Shown piece after piece: positions 34,060 to 35,147 of a stretch of DNA of 64,000 nucleotides. Every line of letters starts with the position of its first letter. Within the stretch, counting starts at the first letter, position 1. The DNA lies in the NCBI RefSeq assembly GCF_947632075.1, contig NZ_CANRNX010000005.1, forward strand, positions 1-64,000, written 5' to 3'. The position numbers were made by a program, and so were the translations under genes. Origin of the DNA: an uncultured Flavobacterium sp. Its GTDB lineage: Bacteria > Bacteroidota > Bacteroidia > Flavobacteriales > Flavobacteriaceae. The notes below the pieces were generated by a model. It saw only the letters and a list, made by a program, of their open reading frames with translations, did no database searches and was not told the DNA's origin.

Positions 34060-34082
34060 CCACAGATTCACAGATTTTTATT
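34060..34082. repeat. Short dispersed repeat, left copy
   Basis: CCACAGATTCACAGATTTTT occurs here at the 3' end of fic and, with one mismatch, at 35694-35713. It overlaps the last codons of fic. Confidence 0.6.
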
Positions 34083-35030
34083 TTTCTTGTAAATCGTGGT
34101 TTTTTTATCTCCGTTTTTCAAAATAAGATTTTTTTCTACAGCATTTTTTAAATCACGACTTGCAGTGGCTGAGGAAATATCCTTAAAATAAATCATATAA
34201 TCTTTTCTAGAGAATTCATTATCGTTGTTTTCTAAAAAAATATTGATTCTATCTTCATCCGAAAGTTTTTTACTTGAATTCATTAATAGCTCACTTAATG
34301 AGTTATCAATTATTTGCAACATATATTCAATGAATTTTGTAGATTTTCCTTCTTTATCAGATTGTGAAAGTTCATTGTAATATGCTTCTTGATTTTTAGA
34401 AATTAAAGTTTCAAACGGTAGAAATTCAAAAACAGGATATTCTTGCATCAAAATTAAAGTTTGCCACAATCTTCCCATTCTTCCATTTCCATCAAGAAAA
34501 GGGTGAATAAATTCCATTTCGTAATGAAAAACACAACTTTTAATTAAAGTTAATTCCGACTTATCTTTCAAATACTCGAACAAATCATTCATTAAAAAAC
34601 GAACATTTTCATAAGGAGGCACAATATGTTCTACTTTTGAACCTTTTACAATTCCAACTCCTTGATTTCTATATTTTCCAGGATTTTCTATTAACTTTTC
34701 TAAAAGAAGTTTATGCGCTTTTAGGAAATCCTTTTCGTTATGAGGTTTTAATTTATTTATGTTTTTATAAACTTCTAAAGCGTTTAATACTTCGAGAATA
34801 TCTTTCTGCGGACCTACGACGCGTTTGTTTTCTAAGATGGCAGTGATTTGTTGTTCAGTCAGTGTGTTTCCCTCAATACTTAAAGAAGAATGAATGGTTT
34901 TAATTTGATTTTGTTTTCTTAAAGTTGGATTTGTTTTAATTAAATATTTAGCGTTTACTTCTCCAATTTTTTCTGAAATTGAAGAAATTAATTTTAATAT
35001 TTTAGAAGTTATTTCGTAGGGAGGCTTCAT
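34068..35030 (-). CDS. Fic family protein (predicted AMP-transferase) with C-terminal winged helix
   Basis: A 320-residue class II Fic protein. The inhibitory helix motif S-x3-E-G is seen as SLSIEGN near residue 49; the Fic core motif HPFLDGNGRMGRLW, matching HxFx(D/E)GNGRxxR, is near 177; the flap region lies before it. The C-terminal 70 residues (FSRKDYMIYFKDISSATASRDLKNAVEKNLI) look like a winged helix as in many Bacteroidota Fic proteins. It should modify target proteins with AMP from ATP; target unknown. Two TGATACTATCA palindromes stand 4 bases upstream of the ATG, so autoregulation via the winged helix is plausible. No antitoxin gene is adjacent. Confidence 0.93.
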   Translation of the reverse strand: MKPPYEITSKILKLISSISEKIGEVNAKYLIKTNPTLRKQNQIKTIHSSLSIEGNTLTEQQITAILENKRVVGPQKDILEVLNALEVYKNINKLKPHNEKDFLKAHKLLLEKLIENPGKYRNQGVGIVKGSKVEHIVPPYENVRFLMNDLFEYLKDKSELTLIKSCVFHYEMEFIHPFLDGNGRMGRLWQTLILMQEYPVFEFLPFETLISKNQEAYYNELSQSDKEGKSTKFIEYMLQIIDNSLSELLMNSSKKLSDEDRINIFLENNDNEFSRKDYMIYFKDISSATASRDLKNAVEKNLILKNGDKKTTIYKKNKNL

Positions 35031-35034
35031 ATTG

Positions 35035-35058
35035 TGATACTATCATTTGATACTATCA
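35035..35058 (-). promoter_or_regulatory. Two tandem palindromic candidate operators at the fic start
   Basis: TGATACTATCA is a perfect 5-1-5 palindrome and appears twice, at 35035-35045 and 35048-35058, 13 bases apart centre to centre. The pair ends 4 bases before the fic ATG, so a bound protein would cover the transcript start. The Fic protein's own winged helix is the obvious candidate binder. Confidence 0.65.
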
Positions 35059-35147
35059 TAAAAGTATGTTTTTTTATTTACTGTTCTTTATTTGAAAAAA
35101 AATAAATTGTATTTTTTTTACAAACTGTTGATTGTTAGTTTTTTATT

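Follow-up and report, generated by a model that had tools for sequence, protein, structure and literature searches.

A twin palindrome at the promoter of a solitary Bacteroidota fic gene points to autorepression by a class II Fic protein with a C-terminal winged helix

Class II forms the largest group among Fic proteins; in type II toxin-antitoxin systems such as Phd-Doc a gene of the Fic/Doc fold is autorepressed through palindromes. According to the authors who characterized CccR of Yersinia pseudotuberculosis, almost nothing is known about the functions and control of class II Fic proteins (PMC9755527). CccR joins a class II Fic domain to a C-terminal helix-turn-helix (HTH) and represses its own gene by binding inverted repeats in the promoter, as established by lacZ fusion, electrophoretic mobility-shift assay and footprint (PMC9755527). 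CbFic2 of Coxiella burnetii is likewise a class II Fic protein with a C-terminal winged helix-turn-helix (wHTH) that binds DNA; this binding can alter Fic activity, and its dimer and monomer have been proposed to differ in deAMPylation versus AMPylation (PMC10628234). Here we describe a fic gene and the twin palindrome directly upstream of it in a 64-kb stretch of DNA from an uncultured Flavobacterium sp. (contig NZ_CANRNX010000005.1, positions 1 to 64,000; hereafter the window). Very probably this is a case of direct autorepression, in which the Fic winged helix would bind the twin site and occlude its own promoter.

The twin site consists of two exact copies of TGATAGTATCA, a perfect 5-1-5 palindrome of the pattern TGATAnTATCA, spaced 13 bp centre to centre, and the gene-proximal copy is separated from the fic ATG (35030) by the four nucleotides CAAT on the minus strand. 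The initial annotation, made from the letters of the window, had reported this pair with its spacing, its position 4 bases before the start codon and its confinement to this place in the window; all three statements hold, and no further exact copy of TGATAGTATCA occurs in the 64 kb. Dinucleotide shuffles predict 0.145 exact TGATAGTATCA copies per window on average. Since 9 of 200 shuffles yielded two identical 5-1-5 palindromes, whatever their sequence, within 30 nt, the pair is moderately significant at most when the window is taken alone. The window's own genome contains 12 exact single copies, among which the site upstream of fic is the sole pair. The features of the locus are as follows.

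35059..35066, minus strand: candidate -7 promoter box TACTTTTA (consensus TAnnTTTG), adjoining operator 1 on its upstream side
35048..35058, minus strand: operator 1, the promoter-proximal palindrome TGATAGTATCA, exact and conserved across orthologue loci
35035..35045, minus strand: operator 2, the gene-proximal palindrome TGATAGTATCA, ending 4 nt before the ATG, exact and conserved in orthologue loci
34068..35030, minus strand: fic gene, 320 amino acids, predicted class II Fic AMPylase with a C-terminal winged helix
34869..34886, minus strand: inhibitory-helix motif SLSIEG, residues 49-54, pattern [S/T]xxxE[G/N], from the orthologue alignment
34470..34505, minus strand: Fic motif HPFLDGNGRMGR, residues 176-187, from the family match and orthologue alignment
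34080..34262, minus strand: predicted wHTH domain, about residues 257-317, from structure prediction
34134..34172, minus strand: predicted recognition helix, residues 287-299, from structure prediction and conservation
34158-34160, minus strand: codon of Ser291, which covaries with operator base 5

What lifts the twin palindrome far beyond chance is its conservation at orthologue loci. We collected 80 relatives in annotated species, added others found in whole genomes, and scored the motif over 20 fixed positions in 109 non-identical Bacteroidota loci of at least 52% identity. The match is exact at 87 of these loci, with one mismatch at 15 and two at 4, such that 102/109 carry at most one mismatch. 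Most loci have 2-5 nt between operator and ATG, with variation up to 17 nt. Across 70 diverse upstream regions, the only strongly conserved stretches are the operator and TA-n2-TTTG just before it, and at 103 of 107 orthologue loci the TAnnTTTG element either runs into operator 1 or directly adjoins it. Flavobacterial sigma-A promoters have this sequence as their -7 box, whose mapped position is -12 to -5 (PMC9723704); counted from there, the operator would span about -6 to +18 in most orthologues. Given that the box touches operator 1 so consistently, the promoter and the first bases of the transcript should be covered by the sites.

The operator pair is also nearly specific to fic. A search of 396 Bacteroidota genomes returned 13 occurrences of the pair pattern and none of a reversed control; eight of the 13 abut an intact fic and one a decayed fic. 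The decayed copy (L134) had been considered a standalone wHTH regulator on account of a match to residues 248-314 beside the pair, and this candidate was rejected. One further pair, at L128, was considered a possible second target until comparison with L037 showed the same flanking genes with fic missing between them. Regarding the gene neighbourhood, 294 neighbouring open reading frames of at least 90 amino acids at 81 loci fell into 255 clusters, the largest with four members, and neither a conserved downstream neighbour nor an adjacent same-operon antitoxin was found among them. Because fic has no constant neighbours, linkage to a regulator or to an antitoxin of normal size is unlikely. In the window no small antitoxin gene follows fic: the next open reading frame of at least 80 amino acids lies less than 100 nt past the fic stop codon in the same orientation and encodes a 723-amino-acid peptidase. 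No relatives were confirmed in viral contigs, and a literature search for the motif itself returned unrelated sequence matches only.

By its motifs the encoded protein is a class II Fic/Doc protein with predicted AMPylase activity. It matches PF02661 (E 1e-20), and HPFLDGNGRMGR conforms to the catalytic motif HPFx[D/E]GNGRxxR and is invariant in 51 orthologues except at residues 179 and 185. In the orthologue alignment of the inhibitory motif, E53 and G54 of SLSIEG are invariant and S49 is nearly so. Pfam and PDB sequence searches with the C-terminal domain returned no family above cut-off, and its assignment as a winged helix is therefore one of structure prediction: AlphaFold yields a confident C-terminal winged helix (mean predicted local distance difference test score, pLDDT, of 89 when folded alone), and its Foldseek neighbours in the PDB are the DNA-binding winged helices of Fur, ArsR, MarR and AspA-like proteins (template-modelling score about 0.7, none with an E-value <0.001). 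The initial annotation had described a winged-helix-like domain at this end of the protein, with which the prediction agrees. Within a domain that otherwise diverges to about 50% identity, the most conserved block is the helix SSATASRDLK.

Covariation links this helix to the operator. For this comparison the set was extended to a second family, giving 133 loci with Ser291 and 13 with Thr291; one query was the window Fic with altered first residues, used for finding genomes only, and it was the sequences found that were analysed. At Ser291 loci the half-site reads TGATA at base 5 in 526/528 cases; both exceptions come from L306, which also has RDM instead of RDL in its helix. At Thr291 loci the 52 half-sites mostly read TGATG (35), with C (10), A (6) or T (1) at base 5 in the rest. 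Fisher's test on half-sites gives p of about 3e-47, although neither the half-sites within a locus nor related loci are independent observations. In a tree built from the Fic domain, leaving out the wHTH, residue 291 and base 5 each need five changes, at least four of which are forced by well-supported branches, and the direction agrees throughout the 4-5 independent Ser/Thr291 switches, with none contrary. One genome (G812) even carries paralogues of both types, each with the matching operator type. This unanimous direction suggests that the protein's own recognition helix reads this site.

In summary, we observe a twin site that is conserved in sequence and position and nearly specific to fic, a solitary gene, and covariation of residue 291 with base 5; together with the predicted wHTH, these strongly support, by comparison, self-repression through the operator pair. 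In the mechanism we propose, a solitary class II Fic protein would bind the two TGATAnTATCA palindromes in its own promoter by its C-terminal winged helix; with the sites overlapping or adjoining the -7 box, Fic bound there would shut out RNA polymerase and hold expression at a low level. We infer direct binding, a dimer on each palindrome, and repression rather than activation, with the likely purpose of holding a potentially toxic AMPylase low without a separate antitoxin gene. The initial annotation had proposed both self-repression and the AMPylation state as a possible switch; the former gains strong comparative support, and the interpretation as a whole is partly supported. The check it had proposed, a scan of homologous Bacteroidota fic upstream regions, found the motif kept. 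Several points weigh against this account. The window box TACTTTTA deviates from TAnnTTTG at its last base (A for G), and three of the 13 genomic pairs (L124, L125, L130) lie without an adjacent fic; they may be relics or second targets. The half-sites inside one locus are not independent, and after correction for phylogeny three to four of four independent pairs go the same way with none contrary, a sign test at p 0.125 that is unable to reach 0.05 because there are too few independent events. CbFic2 has high affinity for random DNA, and part of this binding occurs outside its HTH (PMC10628234); the sequence alone may also be compatible with activation. As a separate observation, the twin pair at L130 sits about 18 nt ahead of a HAD hydrolase gene.

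The three orphan pairs would also fit a different host regulator that binds the twin site and controls fic. We consider this very unlikely, given that the site accompanies fic in unrelated neighbourhoods across several Bacteroidota families, is nearly fic-specific in the 396 genomes and varies together with a recognition-helix residue of Fic. Highly unlikely in our view is the idea that Fic binds the sites and activates its own gene, or that the sites mainly tether Fic to DNA and thereby control enzyme activity; against it, the sites overlap the -7 box and the predicted start, a position typical of repressors, and CccR, a tested protein of the same kind, represses.

Two further readings were considered. 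The palindromes might work in the leader RNA, as a hairpin or another signal for translation, since they end 2-5 nt ahead of the ATG in most loci, would fall in the 5' leader and form a 24-mer that is nearly self-complementary as a whole. This reading is extremely unlikely because the two centre bases needed for pairing are complementary in just 23/124 loci, being mostly GG or CC; moreover, the spacing from the ATG is variable, up to 17 nt, and each palindrome is symmetric on its own and covaries with a DNA-reading helix. That the palindromes are a recombination or insertion site used during fic movement would suit the horizontal mobility of the gene and the case of L128, which keeps the operator while the open reading frame is missing. 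Yet the palindromes lie on one side only, the conserved ends of the mobile cassettes are elsewhere (-87 and +955), and the site sits on the -7 box with a fixed 13-bp spacing, which makes this the most improbable of the readings.

Autorepression by Fic could be coupled to its enzyme activity. The AMPylation state may act as a switch of repression, a possibility raised by analogy with another Fic protein, CbFic2 (PMC10628234). More specifically, the operator might double as an enzyme switch, with operator-held Fic being a dimer that is inhibited or deAMPylating, and loss of grip both opening the promoter and freeing active AMPylase. Grip may be lost via loss or titration of host DNA, auto-AMPylation or break-up of the dimer. 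We regard this extension as rather doubtful. If true, fic would be a one-gene toxin module with DNA as the antitoxin, and the clade-specific operators across the phylum would mean that most Bacteroidota Fic-wHTH enzymes work by an operator switch.

Close orthologues of the window fic travel as integron-like cassettes in marine Flavobacteriaceae. There, fic and its operators form a mobile cassette of about 1.05 kb that is 94-99% identical between genera (L064, L066, L068, L075, L079-L082, L091 and others; G170:C1:2559016-2592838) and has fixed inverted ends, GTTGTGCCCA at -87 and TGGGCACAAC at +955. The cassettes lie among 120-nt imperfect-palindrome spacers resembling attC sites, of which a genome has up to 36, arranged in arrays; none of these spacers occurs in the window's own genome. 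In G170, a run of 16 spacer copies stops 1.4 kb short of a tyrosine recombinase, which scores above the NF040815 cut-off and below the integron-integrase cut-off TIGR02249. Complete integrons were reported to be rare in Bacteroidetes (PMC9024848), and attC sites have been reported in a Polaribacter phage (PMC9892861). One Psychroserpens contig (L075) holds two fic cassettes with a third cassette between them that has inverted ends of its own (GTTACCCAAC / GTTGGGTAAC), and L080:5699-5731 gives an Rfam match to DUF805b RNA just under threshold (33.6 vs 35.6 bits).

In other Bacteroidota Fic-wHTH clades the helices differ, and so do the repeats found close to the -7 box and ATG, such as TGAGCCGATTA..TAATCGGCTCA, AACGAGGGTAA..TTACCCTCGTT and ATGTCGA..TCGACAT. 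Significant inverted repeats occur in 30/68 of their upstream regions compared to 4/67 control windows, a test limited to inverted repeats, which leaves direct-repeat clades such as TTGGATA undetected. This suggests that several Bacteroidota Fic clades (L182-L261) have private Fic operators around the -7 box and start codon. The twin site is absent from those relatives, in Proteobacteria and elsewhere, that lie within type I restriction-modification operons and have other C-termini. Five such relatives of about 43-50% identity (L175, L176, L177, L179, L180) were seen inside type I restriction-modification operons on Gammaproteobacteria plasmids, where they adjoin hsdS and often precede hsdR. 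If the autorepression reading is right, autoregulation with private operators would be common among Bacteroidota Fic-wHTH enzymes, and for one clade there is a precise operator and a single-residue specificity prediction (S291T). It would also explain how a solitary mobile fic is tolerated without an antitoxin gene, as gene and operator would be a self-contained unit able to enter a new host.

Compared with known systems, the window fic differs from Phd-Doc, where a separate antitoxin binds the operator, in that the enzyme itself carries the predicted DNA-binding domain and no partner gene was found. SoFic and EcSofic are Fic enzymes that likewise have a C-terminal domain (PMC12249575). The PADLOC SoFic profile matches residues 7-315 of the window Fic (E 1e-45). 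Against the NCBIfam SoFic equivalog NF046030 the score is 59.4 bits, far under the cut-off of 550 bits; unlike in Sofic-AS1, no small AS1-type gene follows. The closest solved structure by both sequence and fold is Dde_2494 (PDB 4rgl), which aligns over the whole length. For CbFic2 no specific operator or autoregulation is known, and its studied target is host histone H3 (PMC10628234). With CccR the window Fic shares a class II Fic domain, a C-terminal HTH (here a predicted wHTH) and conserved inverted repeats in its own promoter. CccR is a type VI secretion system effector that protects 46 nt containing two 10-bp repeats 26 bp apart (PMC9755527), whereas the window Fic belongs to a separate Bacteroidota clade, and its operator does not follow that layout: two 11-bp palindromes lie side by side with their centres 13 bp apart and overlap or adjoin the -7 box. 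An autorepressing Fic-HTH protein is thus already known from Yersinia; the operator layout and the clade described here differ from it.
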